A stretch of DNA of 33,248 nucleotides. Source: Myxococcota bacterium. GTDB lineage: Bacteria; Myxococcota_A; UBA796; CAJQPC01. The DNA lies in the NCBI GenBank assembly GCA_023150845.1, contig JAKLKD010000042.1, positions 1 to 33,248 on the forward strand, given 5' to 3'. How positions within the stretch are numbered: position 1 is the first letter of the stretch; each line of letters opens with the position of its first letter. The notes under the pieces were generated by a model. It ran no database searches. It was not told where the DNA came from and saw nothing but the letters and a program-made list of their open reading frames with translations. Both the position numbers and the translations under genes were made by a program. Below are positions 1,592-6,441 of this stretch, one piece after another.

Positions 1592-1671
1592 ATCGCCGCG
1601 GCTTGGGCGCGACATTGGGCCGCACCCCGATCCCGGGCCTGTGTGGATAAGCTCGGGGGTGGAGGAACCTG

Positions 1672-2043
1672 ATGCTGATCATGCTCGCCGCGCTGGGCTG
1701 CGCCCACAAAGACCACGCCGCCGACAGCACCTCGGGGCCCTCCGTAGCCTTCCTCGCCCCGGCGGACGGCGAGCTTGTGGCGCTCGGTGAGCACACGGTG
1801 TCCCTCGTCGTCGAGGGCTTCACCTTGGCCGAGGTGGAGCGCCACAACGAGGGCACCCCCGAAGGTTTTGTGCGGCTCAGCCTCGACGGCGAGCCGGTCA
1901 TCGAGAGCGGCCTCACCCAGCTCCCGTACACGCTGACCGACACCGGCCCGCACACCCTGACGGCGGAGCTGTTCTACAGCGACGGCGACGCCTTGGAGCC
2001 CGCGGTGAGCGCCACGGTGGCCATCACAGGGGTCGTCGAGTGA
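1672..2043 (+). CDS. Small lipoprotein, first gene of the regBA operon
   Basis: A 123-residue predicted lipoprotein. A strong ribosome-binding site (GGAGGA, 1661-1666) fixes the ATG at 1672. The signal peptide is unusually short: only nine residues precede the lipobox Cys10 (LAALGC) and there is no basic n-region. The mature part looks like a single Ig-like or beta-sandwich domain with alternating hydrophobic strands. It resembles the next gene product (VEGF..L......G.V.L.L.G and the closing ..L.ELFYSD), so the two are probably diverged tandem duplicates. It overlaps the next gene by GTGA (start 2040, stop 2041-2043), so the two are likely translationally coupled. The function is not recognised. 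Its position suggests an envelope partner or output of the RegB sensor encoded two genes downstream. Confidence 0.8.
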   Translation: MLIMLAALGCAHKDHAADSTSGPSVAFLAPADGELVALGEHTVSLVVEGFTLAEVERHNEGTPEGFVRLSLDGEPVIESGLTQLPYTLTDTGPHTLTAELFYSDGDALEPAVSATVAITGVVE

Positions 2044-2402
2044 GCCGTGTGTGGCCTTGGCTGCCGCTCTTGGCCGCCTGTGGCTGCGGGCCCGGCGAGA
2101 TCACCATCCTGAGCCCCGAGGCTGGCGAGTCCATCTGCGGCGACCCGATGTTGCTCAGCGTGGCCGTAGACGGCTTCCGCCTCGTGGCGCCGACCGCGGA
2201 CGAGACCCGCCGGGAGGGCCGTGGGCACCTCGACGTGCTGCTCAACGGCCAAGAGACGGCGATGATCTGGGCCGAGGAGGCGCGCATCGGCGTCGAGCCC
2301 GGCCTCTGGCGCCTGCGGGTTGAGCTGTCTTACGACGACCACAGCCCCACCGGCGCCTTTGACGAGCTGGACCTCACCGTGGACCCGGAGCTCTGCCCGT
2401 GA
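2040..2402 (+). CDS. Small lipoprotein, paralogue of the preceding gene
   Basis: A 120-residue predicted lipoprotein starting at GTG 2040, inside the stop of the gene before it. The signal peptide ends at a lipobox with Cys14 (LLAAC; Cys16 is the alternative). The mature domain follows the same strand pattern as its upstream neighbour (VDGF.L, L.VLLNG, L.VELSYDD), which supports a tandem duplication followed by strong divergence. The C-terminus has a lone Cys (ELCP) that could form a disulfide. The stop codon at 2400-2402 overlaps the GTG start of the histidine kinase at 2399, so the two lipoproteins and the kinase form one coupled translation unit. No known family is assigned. Confidence 0.78.
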   Translation: MSRVWPWLPLLAACGCGPGEITILSPEAGESICGDPMLLSVAVDGFRLVAPTADETRREGRGHLDVLLNGQETAMIWAEEARIGVEPGLWRLRVELSYDDHSPTGAFDELDLTVDPELCP

Positions 2403-3628
2403 CCACGCCCCTCTCCGACGCCACCTCGGCCTGGACGACGCTCTCCCGGCTGCGCTGGCTGGCGGCGGCGGCGCAGCTCTTTGTGCTCGGCCTCGTGATC
2501 TTGGCGGACTTGCGGCTCCCCTACGCGGAGATCTTCGGCGTCGCCGTCGTCACCGCGAGCTCCAACCTGCTCTTGGCGCGGCTCGTCTCCGTGTCGCGGC
2601 GGGTTCAGGTCGCCGTGGTGCTCGACATCGTGCTGCTCACGGTGCTGCTCGGCCTCGCCGGGGGGCCACACAACCCCTTCACGGCGCTCTACCTCGTGCA
2701 CACCGCGCTCTCCGCGGCGCTCTTGGGCCCGCGCTGGACCTGGGGCGTGGCCTTGCTCTCCACCTTCGGCTACGCGGCGCTGTTCCCGCTGCATTACCCC
2801 GTGCACGCGCTGATGCAGCACCACGACCCCACGGCGCACCTGCGCGGCATGTGGGTCGCCTTCGCCATCACCTCCGTCGCCATCGCCTTCTTTGTGGCCC
2901 GGCTCGCCGCCGTGGCCCGGGACCAGCGCGAGGCCCTGGTCGCCGCCGCCGCCCGGGCGGATCGCCTCGCGTCCTTGACCACTCTGGCCGCCGGGGCCGC
3001 CCATGAGCTCGGCAGCCCGCTCACCACCATCGCCATCGCCGCGAAGGAGCTCGAGAACGGCGCGCGGCGGGCGGGCCGGGAGAGCGACGCTGAAGACGCC
3101 AAGCTCATCGGCGAAGAGACCGCGCGCTGCCGGGAGATCCTCCAGGAGATCGCCGGGCGCGCCGGGACCGGCGTCGGTGAGGCCCCGGAGCGTGTCGACG
3201 GCGAGTGGCTCGCGGCGGAGCTGCGCCGGGCGCTCGGCGAGGCGCTCTGGGCGCGGGTAGACGTGGCGCCGGGCCGGGAGTTCTGGGCCATCTTGCCGCC
3301 GCGCACCTTCGGCCGGGCCGTGGTCACCCTCGTTCGGAACGCCTTGGAGGCCTCCCCCGAGGACCAGCGCGTGAGCGTGCTCCTGCGCCGGGACGACGCG
3401 GCGGTGGAGGTGGAGGTCGTCGATCGGGGCGTGGGCCTGAGCGCCGCCTTGGCCGCCCGGGTCGGCGAGCCCTTCTTCACCACCCGGGCGCCGGGCCAGG
3501 GCCTCGGCCTCGGCGTGTTCTTGGCCCGGGCCTTCGTCGAGCAGACCGGCGGGGAGATGAGCTTCCAGTCCACGCCGGGCCGGGGCACGCGGGTGGTCCT
3601 GCGCTGGCCCGCGGTGACGAGCGGTTAG
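2399..3628 (+). CDS. regB: RegB/PrrB-type redox-sensing histidine kinase
   Basis: A 409-residue membrane histidine kinase of the RegB/PrrB/ActS family, which senses the redox or quinone state and phosphorylates a RegA-type regulator. Residues 15-170 contain about six hydrophobic helices. Residues 88-94 read GGPHNPF, matching the family's quinone-binding signature GGxxNPF. The H-box (AHELGSPLTTI) has phospho-acceptor His202. Cys244, in ARCREIL, corresponds to the redox-active cysteine of Rhodobacter RegB (Cys265). The ATPase domain has an N-box (RNALEA, about 313), a DRGVGL box (342) and GQGLGLG (366). The start is GTG 2399, overlapping the upstream stop. The regulator gene follows after 38 bases. 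Unlike many regB genes, it has no senC/prrC copper-chaperone neighbour; two lipoprotein genes occupy that place. Confidence 0.9.
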   Translation: MTTPLSDATSAWTTLSRLRWLAAAAQLFVLGLVILADLRLPYAEIFGVAVVTASSNLLLARLVSVSRRVQVAVVLDIVLLTVLLGLAGGPHNPFTALYLVHTALSAALLGPRWTWGVALLSTFGYAALFPLHYPVHALMQHHDPTAHLRGMWVAFAITSVAIAFFVARLAAVARDQREALVAAAARADRLASLTTLAAGAAHELGSPLTTIAIAAKELENGARRAGRESDAEDAKLIGEETARCREILQEIAGRAGTGVGEAPERVDGEWLAAELRRALGEALWARVDVAPGREFWAILPPRTFGRAVVTLVRNALEASPEDQRVSVLLRRDDAAVEVEVVDRGVGLSAALAARVGEPFFTTRAPGQGLGLGVFLARAFVEQTGGEMSFQSTPGRGTRVVLRWPAVTSG

Positions 3629-3666
3629 AGCAAACTCAGCCCCTGACGGCAACGCGGAGAAGAACG

Positions 3667-4212
3667 ATGTCTGAGCTTCGACCGACCTTGTTGGTGGTGG
3701 ACGACGACGAGCGCCTCCGGGAGCGCCTGCAGCGGGCCCTGCGTGACCGCGGCTACGAGGTGCGTGGCGCGGGCTCGGCGAAGGAGGCGCTCTCCTTGGC
3801 CCGGGAGGAGACCCCGGAGCACGCGCTCTTGGACCTCCGCCTGCCCGACGGCGGCGGCCTGCAGCTCCTCCGAGAGCTGCGCGACCTCGACCCGACCATC
3901 AACATCGTCGTGCTCACGGGCTACGGCAGCATCGCCACGGCGCTTGAGGCCGTGCGCCTGGGCGCCACGCATTACCTCACCAAGCCCGCCGACGCCGACC
4001 AGATCGTCGCCGCCCTGCGCCGGCGTGAGCTCGGCGCCCAGGACGACCCGCCGCCGCCGGAGGTGGTGCCGTCCTTGGCCCGGGCCGAACACGAGCACAT
4101 CGAGCGTGTGCTCGCCGACTGCGGCGGCAACGTCACCCAGGCCGCGAAGTTGTTGGGCCTGCACCGGCGCTCGCTGCAGCGGAAGCTGAGCAAGTATCCG
4201 CCCCGCCGCTGA
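3667..4212 (+). CDS. regA: RegA/PrrA-type response regulator
   Basis: A 181-residue response regulator with a Fis-type DNA-binding helix-turn-helix, the partner of the RegB kinase just upstream. The receiver has the acidic pocket D12-D14, phospho-acceptor Asp56 (LLDLRLP) and Lys106 (YLTKP). The family's four-proline linker is present (PPPP, about 128-131). The DNA-binding end has GGNVTQAAKLLGLHRRSLQR, very close to RegA and PrrA, including the near-invariant HRR-LQRKL part. The size matches the family (about 184 residues). The ATG at 3667 is chosen because it follows GGAGAAG and gives the canonical N-terminus; coding-like sequence before it in this frame is a shadow of regB. In purple bacteria this regulator controls photosynthesis, respiration, and carbon and nitrogen fixation; the targets here are unknown. 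Confidence 0.92.
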   Translation: MSELRPTLLVVDDDERLRERLQRALRDRGYEVRGAGSAKEALSLAREETPEHALLDLRLPDGGGLQLLRELRDLDPTINIVVLTGYGSIATALEAVRLGATHYLTKPADADQIVAALRRRELGAQDDPPPPEVVPSLARAEHEHIERVLADCGGNVTQAAKLLGLHRRSLQRKLSKYPPRR

Positions 4213-4220
4213 CCCCACCC

Positions 4221-4871
4221 TCACCCCCCAAAGGTCGCCACCGTCCAGGGGTGCTCGTGGTGGTCGAGCGCGGCGGGGTCCACGGAGTGCTCGGGGCGCA
4301 GGCGGCTCAAGAGGCGCTGCATGGTGCGGTGGTCACGCTGGCTCATCACGGGGATCCCGGCGCGATCGAGGGTGGCCGCCATGACGCCCATGCCGCGCTG
4401 GAACCGCCGGGGGCTGTCGCTCCGGGCGCCCAAGGAGATCACCTGGGTGCCGCAGGCCGCGCTCATGTCGGTGAGCACGGCGAGCACGACCCCCTCACGC
4501 TGGGCGAGGGTGAGCGCCTCAGCCGCGGCGGCGATGATGCCCGCGGTGCCGTCTTGGCCGTCGTCAAACAAGAAGCGGGCGTGGCCGTCGAGCGCCGCGT
4601 GGCCGTCGCCGTCGTGGAGGTCGGGCATCCGCCGGGGCGTGCCAAACGCCATGTGTTCGGGGCAGACGGGCACCCAGCGCAGGTTGTCCAGCCCCCGCAG
4701 CAGGTCGAGCGCGCGCTCCATGCCGTAGCTGGTGCCGTCGATGCCGCAGCCCCAGGACATCATGCAGCCGCTCACGAGGATGGGCCAGGGGCGCTGGGCG
4801 GTCGGGTCGGGCAAAGTGTCGAGGGCGGCCCAGACGCGGCGGAGGTGGTCGGGGGTCGGCAGGCTGGGCAT
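4221..4871 (-). CDS. DUF523 / TudS-type [4Fe-4S] protein
   Basis: A 216-residue protein of the DUF523 family, whose characterised member TudS is a 2-thiouracil desulfurase using a [4Fe-4S] cluster held by three cysteines. Visible family features are ILVSGCMMSWGCGIDG (Cys36, Cys42), VPVCPEHMAFGTPR (Cys70 and the conserved Pro-Glu), and a later SAACG (Cys140) in the place of the family's SPSCG. The start at 4871 is supported by a GAGAGG ribosome-binding site. The frame stays open far upstream, but that part is the shadow of the neighbouring lipoprotein. It lies 8 bases after the lipoprotein stop and is probably co-transcribed with it. It converges on regA with an 8-base gap. Substrate specificity cannot be judged from sequence. 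Confidence 0.85.
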   Translation of the reverse strand: MPSLPTPDHLRRVWAALDTLPDPTAQRPWPILVSGCMMSWGCGIDGTSYGMERALDLLRGLDNLRWVPVCPEHMAFGTPRRMPDLHDGDGHAALDGHARFLFDDGQDGTAGIIAAAAEALTLAQREGVVLAVLTDMSAACGTQVISLGARSDSPRRFQRGMGVMAATLDRAGIPVMSQRDHRTMQRLLSRLRPEHSVDPAALDHHEHPWTVATFGG

Positions 4872-4879
4872 CGGGCCTC

Positions 4880-5476
4880 TCAGCGTTGGTAGAGCTGGGT
4901 GATCACCGTGCCGTCGCCGCTGAGCGCGGTGATGACGAGGGCGCCGTACCCCTTGGCGTCGTCCGGGGCGGGCACGCAGCCCTTGTGCCCGCCGCCCAGG
5001 GTGACGCCGGGGGCGCTCGCGGTGATCGGCGGGCGCAGCGGCGTCTCGGCGCCCGGGGCGAAGAGCTCGATCTGGGCGGAGACGGTCCCGGTGATGACCA
5101 CCGCCGCGGCGTAACACCCGCCGAGCTCCATCTTCGCGGGCAGGCGGAGCGTCGCGCCGGTGGTGAAGGTGGCGCCCGAGGCGTGGCCGAGGCGGCGCAG
5201 GAAGATCTCGCCTTGCTGTGCGAGCGCCTCGACGGCGGGCATCTGGGCGCTCATCTCCTCGACGCTGAAGGGCAGGGCTGTGCCCTCGGGCTTGGCGTCG
5301 CCTAAGGCCGCGAGCTCACCGCTCGGCCCGGCGGGGTTCCCGGCGCTGGGGTCTCCCGCCGCGCCGGGGTCGGTGAGGGCCGGGTCCCCCTCACCCTCGA
5401 CGGAGCTGACCTCGACGCAGCCCCCGAGGGTGAGGGCCGAGCCGAGCGTCAGGGCCGAGAGGAGCGAGGCGCGCAT
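4880..5476 (-). CDS. Lipoprotein of unknown function
   Basis: A 198-residue predicted lipoprotein. The signal peptide MRASLLSALTLGSALTLGGC places the lipidated cysteine at residue 20. It is followed by a Gly/Pro/Asp/Ser-rich linker (about 25-70) typical of surface-exposed lipoproteins, and a C-terminal domain of about 120 residues with three further cysteines and several strands (GATLRLPAKMELGGCYAAAVV, then HKGCVPAPDDAKGYGALVI). The KGCVPAP / GYGA stretch resembles a small disulfide-stabilised beta domain, but I do not recognise the family. There is no convincing ribosome-binding site. A promoter with a perfect -35 box ends exactly at the ATG, so a leaderless transcript is plausible. The TudS-like gene follows 8 bases later. 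Confidence 0.8.
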   Translation of the reverse strand: MRASLLSALTLGSALTLGGCVEVSSVEGEGDPALTDPGAAGDPSAGNPAGPSGELAALGDAKPEGTALPFSVEEMSAQMPAVEALAQQGEIFLRRLGHASGATFTTGATLRLPAKMELGGCYAAAVVITGTVSAQIELFAPGAETPLRPPITASAPGVTLGGGHKGCVPAPDDAKGYGALVITALSGDGTVITQLYQR

Positions 5477-5482
5477 AGGCGC

Positions 5483-5511
5483 ATCACACGCCAGCGCCGG
5501 GTTGATGTCAA
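5483..5511 (-). promoter_or_regulatory. Sigma-70-type promoter for the lipoprotein, apparently leaderless
   Basis: On the minus strand TTGACA (5511-5506, perfect -35), a 17-base spacer, and TGTGAT (5488-5483, 4 of 6 for -10). The expected start of transcription, about 7 bases further on, coincides with the A of the lipoprotein ATG at 5476. The -35 box overlaps the second stop codon of the interrupted gene upstream. No Shine-Dalgarno sequence is visible before 5476, which fits a leaderless mRNA. Confidence 0.5.
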
Positions 5512-5909
5512 GGAGGGTCGGCGGCCATCCCGACGGCGCAGCGCGCGCCGTAGCCGAGCACGGCGTTGTCGGCGACCGGCGAAGGGACGGGCCGCCAGCC
5601 GCGGGCGAGCCGGGCGTCGAGGAGCTCATCGAGGCTCGGCAGGTGATCCCAGACGGCGACCGCCGTCACCTTGCCCAGTCAGGTCGAGTCGTAGACGAGC
5701 CAGCGGTCCTCGCTGAGGCGCACCGGCACGTCGAGGCTGAACTCGTCCATGGCCCGGGGCTCCTCCACCAGGAGTCCCTCCCCGAACGCCCAGCGGGCGG
5801 CGCGCTCCAGGAGCGTGTGCCGCGCGATCATGCCCTCGATGACGAGGCGCTCCGTGGCGCTCAGGCCGACGTGATCGTAGATGTGGATGGGCGGCGGGGA
5901 GAGGTTCAT
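5508..5909 (-). CDS. Unknown small protein with in-frame TGA: possible selenoprotein or nonsense-interrupted gene
   Basis: The ATG at 5909 opens 76 codons (MNLSPPPIHIYDHVGLS...) ending at a TGA at 5681-5679. The same frame then continues for 56 more codons (LGKVTAVAVWDHLPSLDELL...) to a second TGA at 5510-5508. The part after the first TGA looks fully coding: about 51 of its 56 codons end in G or C, its residue composition is normal, and it contains the regular pattern WDHLPSLDELLDARLARGW. Read through, the product is 133 residues with position 77 either selenocysteine, a mutated Trp/Cys codon, or a sequencing error; a Cys is present at 124. A hairpin with a GGUC loop follows the TGA at SECIS-like distance. 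General reassignment of TGA is excluded, because most genes here end in TGA. The family is not recognised. The conventional reading is 5679-5909. Confidence 0.55.
5641..5671 (-). promoter_or_regulatory. SECIS-like hairpin just after the in-frame TGA
   Basis: On the minus strand, AGGUGA (5671-5666) pairs with UCACCU (5646-5641), and CGGC with GCCG, closing a GGUC tetraloop at 5661-5658. The 3' side has a 7-base bulge (UCUGGGA). Alternatively GACGGC pairs with GCCGUC as one 6-bp upper stem. Seventeen bases separate the TGA from the loop. From memory, the Escherichia coli fdhF SECIS has 18 bases and the same GGUC loop sequence. The hairpin could also arise by chance in GC-rich coding sequence. 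Confidence 0.35.
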
Positions 5910-5922
5910 AGACTCAGCGTAG

Positions 5923-5936
5923 CGAGGCTCACCTCG
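5923..5936. repeat. Short inverted repeat in a divergent intergenic region
   Basis: CGAGG-CTCA-CCTCG, 5-base arms with a 4-base centre, in the 79-base gap between the interrupted gene (-) and the DUF6756-like gene (+). It may be an operator shared by both. No clear promoter boxes were found beside it. Confidence 0.25.
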
Positions 5937-5988
5937 ACAGATCCAGCCCCGGCGACGATGTAAGGGTGATGACAGGAGGGCGAGACCG

Positions 5989-6441
5989 ATGGCCGTAGAC
6001 CCCGAGCTGCTGGAGGAGCTCCGCGCCCTCGCGCCCGGTCTCGGGGTCGTGGAGCTGGCCGAGGCCGACGCCGCCGGGGTGATCCGCCGCGCCCGGGCGA
6101 CCTTTGTTACGCGCCCTAGGGTGACCTGGTGGTGGACGGCGCTCAGGCCGCCGACGGTCACTCTGCCCTACGGGGGGCAGGACGGCCTCACACTGCTCGT
6201 GCGGCTGCTCCCCGCCGAGACGAGGGCGGTGCTCGTGGTCACCGACGACGAGCCCCCGCCTTGGCCTACGTTTGAGGGCGCCATCGGCGACCTCGTCGCG
6301 CTCCTGCGGGAGCTGCGGCCCTTTGAGCTCTGGCTCAGCGCCCGTGAGGCGGACTGGATCGTCTTCGACACCCACCATGACGCCCTGGTCGTGGCCGGGC
6401 CCCTCGTCGCCGCGGCCCAGTCCGTCGAGGCCTCCCGCTGA
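5989..6441 (+). CDS. DUF6756-like protein
   Basis: A 150-residue soluble protein. The start is supported by AGGAGG at 5974-5979. The second half (TDDEPPPWPTFEGAIGDL, then RPFELWLSAREADWIVF, then THHDALVVAG) matches the pattern I associate with the DUF6756 family, in which a conserved F-E-x-W/Y strand precedes W-x-x-x-x-x-HHD-x-L near the C-terminus. That assignment is from memory and should be tested by a profile search. No signal peptide, membrane helix or catalytic signature is visible, so the function is unknown. It is transcribed away from the interrupted gene upstream and converges on the MBL-fold hydrolase with an 18-base gap. Confidence 0.75.
   Translation: MAVDPELLEELRALAPGLGVVELAEADAAGVIRRARATFVTRPRVTWWWTALRPPTVTLPYGGQDGLTLLVRLLPAETRAVLVVTDDEPPPWPTFEGAIGDLVALLRELRPFELWLSAREADWIVFDTHHDALVVAGPLVAAAQSVEASR

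Follow-up and report, generated by a model that had tools for sequence, protein, structure and literature searches.

Gene neighbourhood of the RegBA locus

The stretch of DNA analysed here (the window) is contig JAKLKD010000042.1 at its full length of 33,248 nucleotides, one of 444 contigs in the 7.1 Mb assembly of a lake myxobacterium of the phylum Myxococcota (GCA_023150845.1, genome G000 in the following). It carries four consecutive genes for two small putative lipoproteins, LP1 and LP2, and for a redox histidine kinase and a response regulator of the RegB/RegA (PrrB/PrrA, ActS/ActR) family. The locus is a modestly conserved but real arrangement with an indirect but recurrent copper context, and its gene order, families, folds and recurrent neighbourhoods are established by the data given below. 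Our preferred reading, to which we assign a probability of about 0.45, is that RegBA regulates a periplasmic copper or cuproenzyme module and that LP1 and LP2 are envelope members of it which are co-transcribed with their regulator. We arrived at this reading because the genes for the sister RegB proteins of genomes G050 and G034 cluster with genes for YtkA-like proteins, a family designated P268, LP1, MbnP and MbnH.

The cluster of G050 consists of LP2 (divergent), regB, regA, a YtkA-like gene, P268, LP1, YtkA-like genes, LP1, MbnP and MbnH, and that of G034 of regB, regA, a YtkA-like gene, P268 and LP1, with MbnP and MbnH on the opposite strand. Both species belong to another family of the order than the genus of the window, and their RegB proteins group with the window RegB in a tree of 30 of the 34 RegB-like genes, namely those with regA called alongside (support 89/84). 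MbnP and MbnH were identified by matches over cut-off to PF20243, TIGR04052 and TIGR04039, whereas the P268 ("SCC") family, present in 13 of 63 genomes of the order, has no Pfam match and shows a conserved CC near its start. P268 adjoins RegBA in G011, G033, G051, G034, G050 and G003, and in four genomes besides G034 and G050 (G003 included) it does so together with a YtkA-like gene. A further genome (G015) has RegBA next to MbnP-MbnH without a lipoprotein gene. A search with model NF033792 at E values up to 1e-40 in 58 genomes of the order (G058-G062 left out) yielded 36 RegB loci in 26 genomes, a count that omits the RegB of G003, which was missed at this threshold and found later. P268 occurs at five of these loci against 0.03 expected and MbnP at three against 0.06, these and the following expectations assuming uniform placement and treating relatives as independent.

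The same partners recur elsewhere in the order. In G041 and G046, YtkA-P268 has a NosD gene (matching TIGR04247 over its cut-off) as a neighbour, P268-NosD was seen by eye in G010, and P268 adjoins MbnH in G001 and G000. LP1 comes after P268 in G034, G050 and G042 and after MbnP-MbnH in G054; among the lipoprotein matches listed (65 places, E about 1e-18 or better), adjacency was found in 3 of 13 cases for P268 (0.05 expected) and in 3 of 18 for MbnP (0.06 expected). Lipoprotein pairs also lie near RND genes at loci L054 and L107, and at L108 the gene close to LP2 is of CusA/CzcA type (TIGR00914, 1160 bits, over cut-off); the RND fragment of L054 matches TIGR00914 best, the RND gene of L107 multidrug models. 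With YtkA, MbnP, MbnH, NosD and CusA/CzcA as recurring neighbours, the context points towards the handling of copper or metals. A module for heavy-metal efflux or general envelope metal stress instead of cuproenzyme maturation would account for the CusA/CzcA-family RND genes at L054 and L108, and for an RND-type operon with a CDF-like gene noted by eye near a lipoprotein gene outside the order (L153). We consider it improbable, as the MbnP, MbnH, NosD and YtkA neighbours lie on the copper-supply side.

MbnP and MbnH (TIGR04052/TIGR04039) are a copper protein and a di-haem enzyme; PMC3912023 describes copper proteins of the CorA/MopE type that have di-haem partners, and PMC3621798 treats MbnP/MbnH as a pair whose role was then unclear. 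The pair recurs next to RegBA and LP1 in the order, but it is not found beside the window operon. YtkA/CtaK (PF13115) is represented by a 120-amino-acid YtkA-like lipoprotein, whose gene comes before P268 at loci with neighbouring RegBA, Nos or MbnPH genes, and by a version of 280 amino acids beside lipoprotein pairs, which stays under the PF13115 cut-off. According to PMC13344008, CtaK/YtkA is thought to act with Sco in CuA assembly, a role known from Bacillus only.

In G000, YtkA-P268-MbnH is encoded on contig C387, separate from the window contig. Because the parts are clustered in G034 and G050 yet located on separate contigs in G000, the module is split in the genus of the window, with RegBA and LP1-LP2 at one place and YtkA-P268-(MbnP)-MbnH at another. 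The C387 locus (L144, 4780-7114) contains the di-haem enzyme gene without that of its usual partner, and MbnP was not found in a search of the G000 genome; at the corresponding genes of G001 (L125, contig C826, 4471-7696), MbnP is located between P268 and MbnH.

Identity of RegB and RegA

The best NCBIfam model for the window RegB is ActS/PrrB/RegB NF033792 (214.9 bits, 1.8e-63; equivalog cut-off of 350 not reached), and that for RegA is ActR/PrrA NF033791 (177.4 bits, 2.4e-52; equivalog cut-off of 250 not reached). Because these models match best but under their equivalog cut-offs, we rate the pair as divergent yet clear family-level relatives of RegB and RegA and do not call them equivalogs. 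RegB carries the GG..NPF quinone motif (GGPHNPF from residue 88), and Cys244 is its sole cysteine, placed between the H-box and the ATPase domain. The gene arrangement, the quinone motif, Cys244 and two GTGA overlaps between the genes had all been correctly given in an initial annotation of the sequence. In this family, RegB proteins sense the quinone and thiol redox state, and the response is carried by RegA (PMC9147068).

The stretch between transmembrane segments 5 and 6 (TM5-6 loop) contains 2 to 7 methionines in the window's half of the RegB tree (17 rows with G003) and 0 to 2 in the other large group (12 rows), several members of which are bioA-linked; kinship alone could explain this excess. 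A plasmid search for a canonical proteobacterial RegB for loop comparison returned kinase-domain matches only. Three observations on other RegB genes may be added. In the RegB encoded at L081 (gene at 4846-6168), the loop stretch has 8 His and 7 Met and looks strongly copper-site-like; G050 and G034 possess a second, distant RegBA type (L090 and L091; contigs C47 and C81) with a His-rich TM5-6 loop, by eye beside a TonB-receptor-like gene; and in genomes of family f4 (L080, L083, L086, L087, L104) the RegB gene comes after, or overlaps with, one for a bioA-like aminotransferase, again judged by eye.

RegA of the window has a cysteine aligned with that of the PrrA DNA-binding domain (1umq), the R. 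capsulatus sequence itself being outside the alignment. PMC9147068 reports copper binding by RegA of R. capsulatus and a disulfide dimer via Cys156 with Cu2+ and oxygen. The cysteine is present in 13 of 30 readable RegA proteins (31 rows, one unreadable), namely in 5/5 of those next to lipoprotein or MbnPH genes, 1/3 of those with YtkA-P268 only and 7/22 of the others. These counts are suggestive but confounded by ancestry, and we did not use the cysteine as a marker of copper linkage.

In proteobacteria, the usual neighbour of RegBA is senC/prrC, the gene of a copper chaperone. The window system resembles RegB-RegA/PrrB-PrrA/ActS-ActR in the RegB-type membrane sensor part with GG..NPF motif and redox cysteine and in the Fis-type regulator with a cysteine in the DNA-binding domain. 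It differs by the lipoprotein pair upstream, the lack of senC and scores under the NCBIfam cut-offs. SCO1-SenC genes are present in 52 of 63 genomes of the order, those of G000 lying on contigs C426 and C135. By comparing the gene lists by eye, we found none in the window and none within 6 kb of RegB at any of the 36 loci, and the two contigs seen to share SCO and RegB carry them more than 50 kb apart. At none of these loci does RegBA stand beside senC, as the initial annotation had already implied for the window.

The two lipoproteins and their distribution

LP1 and LP2 share about 24% identity and align with a profile-profile probability of 99.2, which bears out their earlier description as paralogues; they represent two orthologous subfamilies of one DUF4399-like family with immunoglobulin (Ig) fold, recurring as neighbours. 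Neither matched a Pfam or NCBIfam model over cut-off, and DUF4399 (PF14347) gave no match at E values up to 1; two of their relatives scored 12.1 and 12.4 bits against PF14347, with a gathering score of 28. Using hhalign, DUF4399 was matched across the whole mature length with probabilities of 96.9 (LP2) and 96.0 (LP1), versus 0.2 to 16 for unrelated controls. Among the genes recovered with the lipoprotein profile are five, with E values of about 1e-7 to 1e-9, that the DUF4399 model finds as well. The GHHH and THIHYG segments of DUF4399 are missing from the lipoproteins; LP2 retains a single His of the former and carries a Cys pair. Tandem multi-copy DUF4399-like domains were seen in large proteins of G057, G046, G034 and G054 (e.g., L137, 1925-3295), all of one family of the order.

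AlphaFold yields all-beta models with an Ig/FnIII-like beta-sandwich for both proteins, at a predicted local distance difference test (pLDDT) of 90.6 for LP2 and 84.9 for LP1, and they share the FnIII-like 3pe9 as the best solved-structure match (LP2: Z 10.3, root-mean-square deviation 2.1 over 82; LP1: Z 10.9, 1.8 over 82). The pair had initially been taken to have an unknown fold, and the models speak against that; the predicted fold is generic and points to no function. Foldseek returned only generic matches of Ig/FnIII-like type; CopC 5icu appeared in both lists (E 0.014 and 0.007) and was not used as a fold relative because the match is weak and the fold too common. LP2 carries a clear lipobox motif (LLAAC), and the putative lipobox of LP1 (MLIMLAALGC) ends a short signal in which 9 residues precede the Cys. 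Such apparently ultra-short signals were called with up to 11 residues before the Cys in 81 of 177 lipobox candidates, with L053:1080, L062:4638 and L064:693 as examples besides the window gene at 1672; 40 candidates have no in-frame ATG, GTG or TTG giving more than 13 residues, and non-standard starts are possible.

LP2 was searched in 58 genomes including G000, and a combined LP1+LP2 profile (A3) in 63 genomes of the order and 377 of the phylum. The family was found in 41/63 genomes of the order at 1e-5, with up to 20 matches per genome, and in 38/377 of the phylum at 1e-12, 31 of which belong to the order; the stretches fetched from the other seven contain no RegB. Conservation of the four-gene order across Myxococcota had to be rejected: LP1-LP2-regB-regA occurs only in G000 and G001, which represent one genus (2/58 genomes of the order searched for RegB and LP2). 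The locus of the sister species G001 (L066) has the same succession as the window, a 375-amino-acid gene, LP1, LP2, regB, regA and a desulfurase-like gene, and its lipoproteins are 77% (LP1) and 77-78% (LP2) identical to those of the window. The expectation that the lipoproteins stay beside regB in relatives thus holds in part, with the pair kept in G001 and family members flanking related regBA genes in G050 and G034, but with the exact order in one genus only. Because of these cases, the adjacency is no one-off: among the matches listed, 4 of 36 RegB loci (G000, G001, G050, G034) have a lipoprotein gene at a distance of up to 6 kb, against 0.08 expected, two of the four representing one genus.

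Among 19 loci fetched for lipoprotein similarity, 17 are without RegB, the exceptions being L066 and L071. Six of these 17 contain LP1 and LP2 together, as do others (L107, L117), and six have a YtkA-like neighbour of 280 amino acids; the pairs mostly adjoin YtkA-like proteins or housekeeping genes. The lipoproteins are therefore not RegB specialists, as the family mostly occurs apart from RegB.

A role in envelope sensing or signal input to RegB had been proposed for the lipoproteins, with the translational coupling through gene overlaps taken as a hint of it. The 4-bp GTGA overlaps of LP1/LP2 (2040-2043) and LP2/regB (2399-2402) are of the commonest kind here: 122 of 495 same-strand neighbours on the gene maps share a 4-bp overlap, about a quarter of the junctions, and because of this frequency we regard the coupling as ordinary. 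Gene starts on these maps come from a codon-usage gene caller, which clipped the starts of LP2 and RegA in the window. Accessory inputs, in the sense of periplasmic LP1 and LP2 touching the short loops of RegB and tuning the kinase, would fit the direct overlap of LP2 with regB in two species, the presence in G050 of a lipoprotein gene on either side of regBA, and the His-containing TM5-6 loop, which could serve as a docking or metal site. They are nevertheless unlikely in view of the RegB-free lipoprotein loci, the two genes between LP1 and regBA in G034 and G050, and the ordinary overlaps; the idea of a lipoprotein sensor for RegB is without specific support.

Features of the locus

The coordinates of the four genes and of their characteristic residues are listed in Table 1.

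Table 1. Features of the LP1-LP2-regB-regA locus (positions in the window)
Feature	Position	Strand	Remarks
Putative LP1 ribosome-binding site GGAGG	1661-1665	+	6 nt 5' of LP1 ATG; direct reading
LP1, small lipoprotein, DUF4399-like Ig fold	1672-2043	+	123 amino acids; subfamily without Cys pair, motifs NEGxPxG(Y/F) and Y(A/S)DGD; predicted by AlphaFold and hhalign
LP2, small lipoprotein, DUF4399-like Ig fold	2040-2402	+	120 amino acids; invariant C33, H63, L68-N69-G70-Q71, H101, C119
LP2 His63	2226-2228	+	Invariant in 16 LP2 rows; aligns with GHHH motif of DUF4399
LP2 His101	2340-2342	+	Invariant in 16 LP2 rows
regB, RegB/PrrB/ActS-family redox histidine kinase	2399-3628	+	409 amino acids; profile matches, tree
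RegB quinone motif GGPHNPF	2660-2680	+	Residues 88-94; sequence/alignment
RegB periplasmic TM5-6 loop	2792-2851	+	Residues 132-151; 5 His, 2 Met; topology inferred
RegB phospho-acceptor His202 in AAHELGSPL	3002-3004	+	Sequence/alignment
RegB redox Cys244	3128-3130	+	Cys at same column in 31/31 rows
regA, RegA/PrrA/ActR-family response regulator	3667-4212	+	181 amino acids; profile matches
RegA Cys152	4120-4122	+	Aligned with Cys of PrrA DNA-binding domain (1umq)

Just 5' of LP1, the same strand encodes a lipoprotein of 375 amino acids (451-1578), which contains a single motif of MopE type (PF11617, under cut-off) and has an about 89% identical counterpart at the same position in G001. Its "Cu-binding_MopE" motif was not used as copper evidence, the score being under cut-off. 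On the other side, a gene on the minus strand (4221-4871), convergent with regA and kept in G001, codes for a protein with a 2-thiouracil desulfurase domain (PF04463, 61.2 bits).

Proposed function and significance

Several results weigh against a copper-related RegBA module. No copper gene adjoins the window operon, so that the link runs via other genomes and another contig. The count of 6/13 P268 genes next to RegBA is biased, because the profile had been built with five of the six members that are linked to RegBA, and among the new hits of the profile, only 1/7 lies beside RegBA (G003). LP1-P268-YtkA occurs without RegB in G042, the 280-amino-acid YtkA-like proteins score under the Pfam cut-off, and the RegA cysteine is missing in G011 and G033, whose RegBA adjoins YtkA-P268. 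Eleven of the 17 lipoprotein loci have no YtkA-like neighbour and none of the 17 has RegB, unlike L066 and L071, which were fetched in the same way; others adjoin gcvH/ftsH or nadA, as judged by eye. Finally, LP1 lacks an invariant His or Cys set fit for a metal site.

The operon might also be incidental, the lipoproteins being generic Ig-like envelope proteins of this lineage whose genes came to lie upstream of regBA by chance in a single genus. We consider this possible but doubtful. The family is abundant (with up to 20 matches in one genome, including multi-repeat proteins of 400-700 amino acids), its FnIII-like fold is generic, and the exact gene order is confined to a single genus. Against this stand a second clade (G050, G034) with lipoprotein genes in the vicinity of RegB and the adjacencies to P268 and MbnP, which exceed the expectation for uniform placement among the matches listed.

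In our preferred reading, LP1-LP2-regB-regA would form one operon transcribed as a unit. As in the rest of the family, the quinone pool and Cys244 most likely determine the activity of the RegB kinase, which passes its phosphate to RegA, and the RegA regulon of the lineage most likely includes the periplasmic copper or cuproenzyme module. RegBA would thereby govern respiration that depends on copper, or the loading of copper. The most likely part of LP1 and LP2 in the module is a structural or copper-handling one, possibly with copper binding; they are envelope proteins which would be made in step with the regulator, probably without direct contact to RegB, and would hold the place of senC/prrC in the proteobacterial loci. 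A more far-reaching version, which we judge quite unlikely, is a dual copper and redox sensor, in which the His/Met-rich TM5-6 loop of RegB binds copper presented by the lipoproteins, RegA Cys152 acts as a copper/oxygen dimer switch, and RegBA controls the loading of cuproenzymes of MbnP, Nos or oxidase type.

RegBA is a global redox regulator, and its link to copper is recent, resting on copper binding by RegA in Rhodobacter (PMC9147068). A literature search for a link between RegB and copper loci in myxobacteria or for a copper-sensing RegB returned nothing closer than that paper, and as far as this search shows, a RegBA-copper link in myxobacteria is apparently undescribed at the locus level. 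For DUF4399, a literature search listed a single paper in which the term occurs. A lineage with recurrent association of RegBA with genes for YtkA-like, MbnP/MbnH and DUF4399-like proteins offers a natural test of copper status as a RegBA signal, and the DUF4399-like proteins would gain a first testable role.

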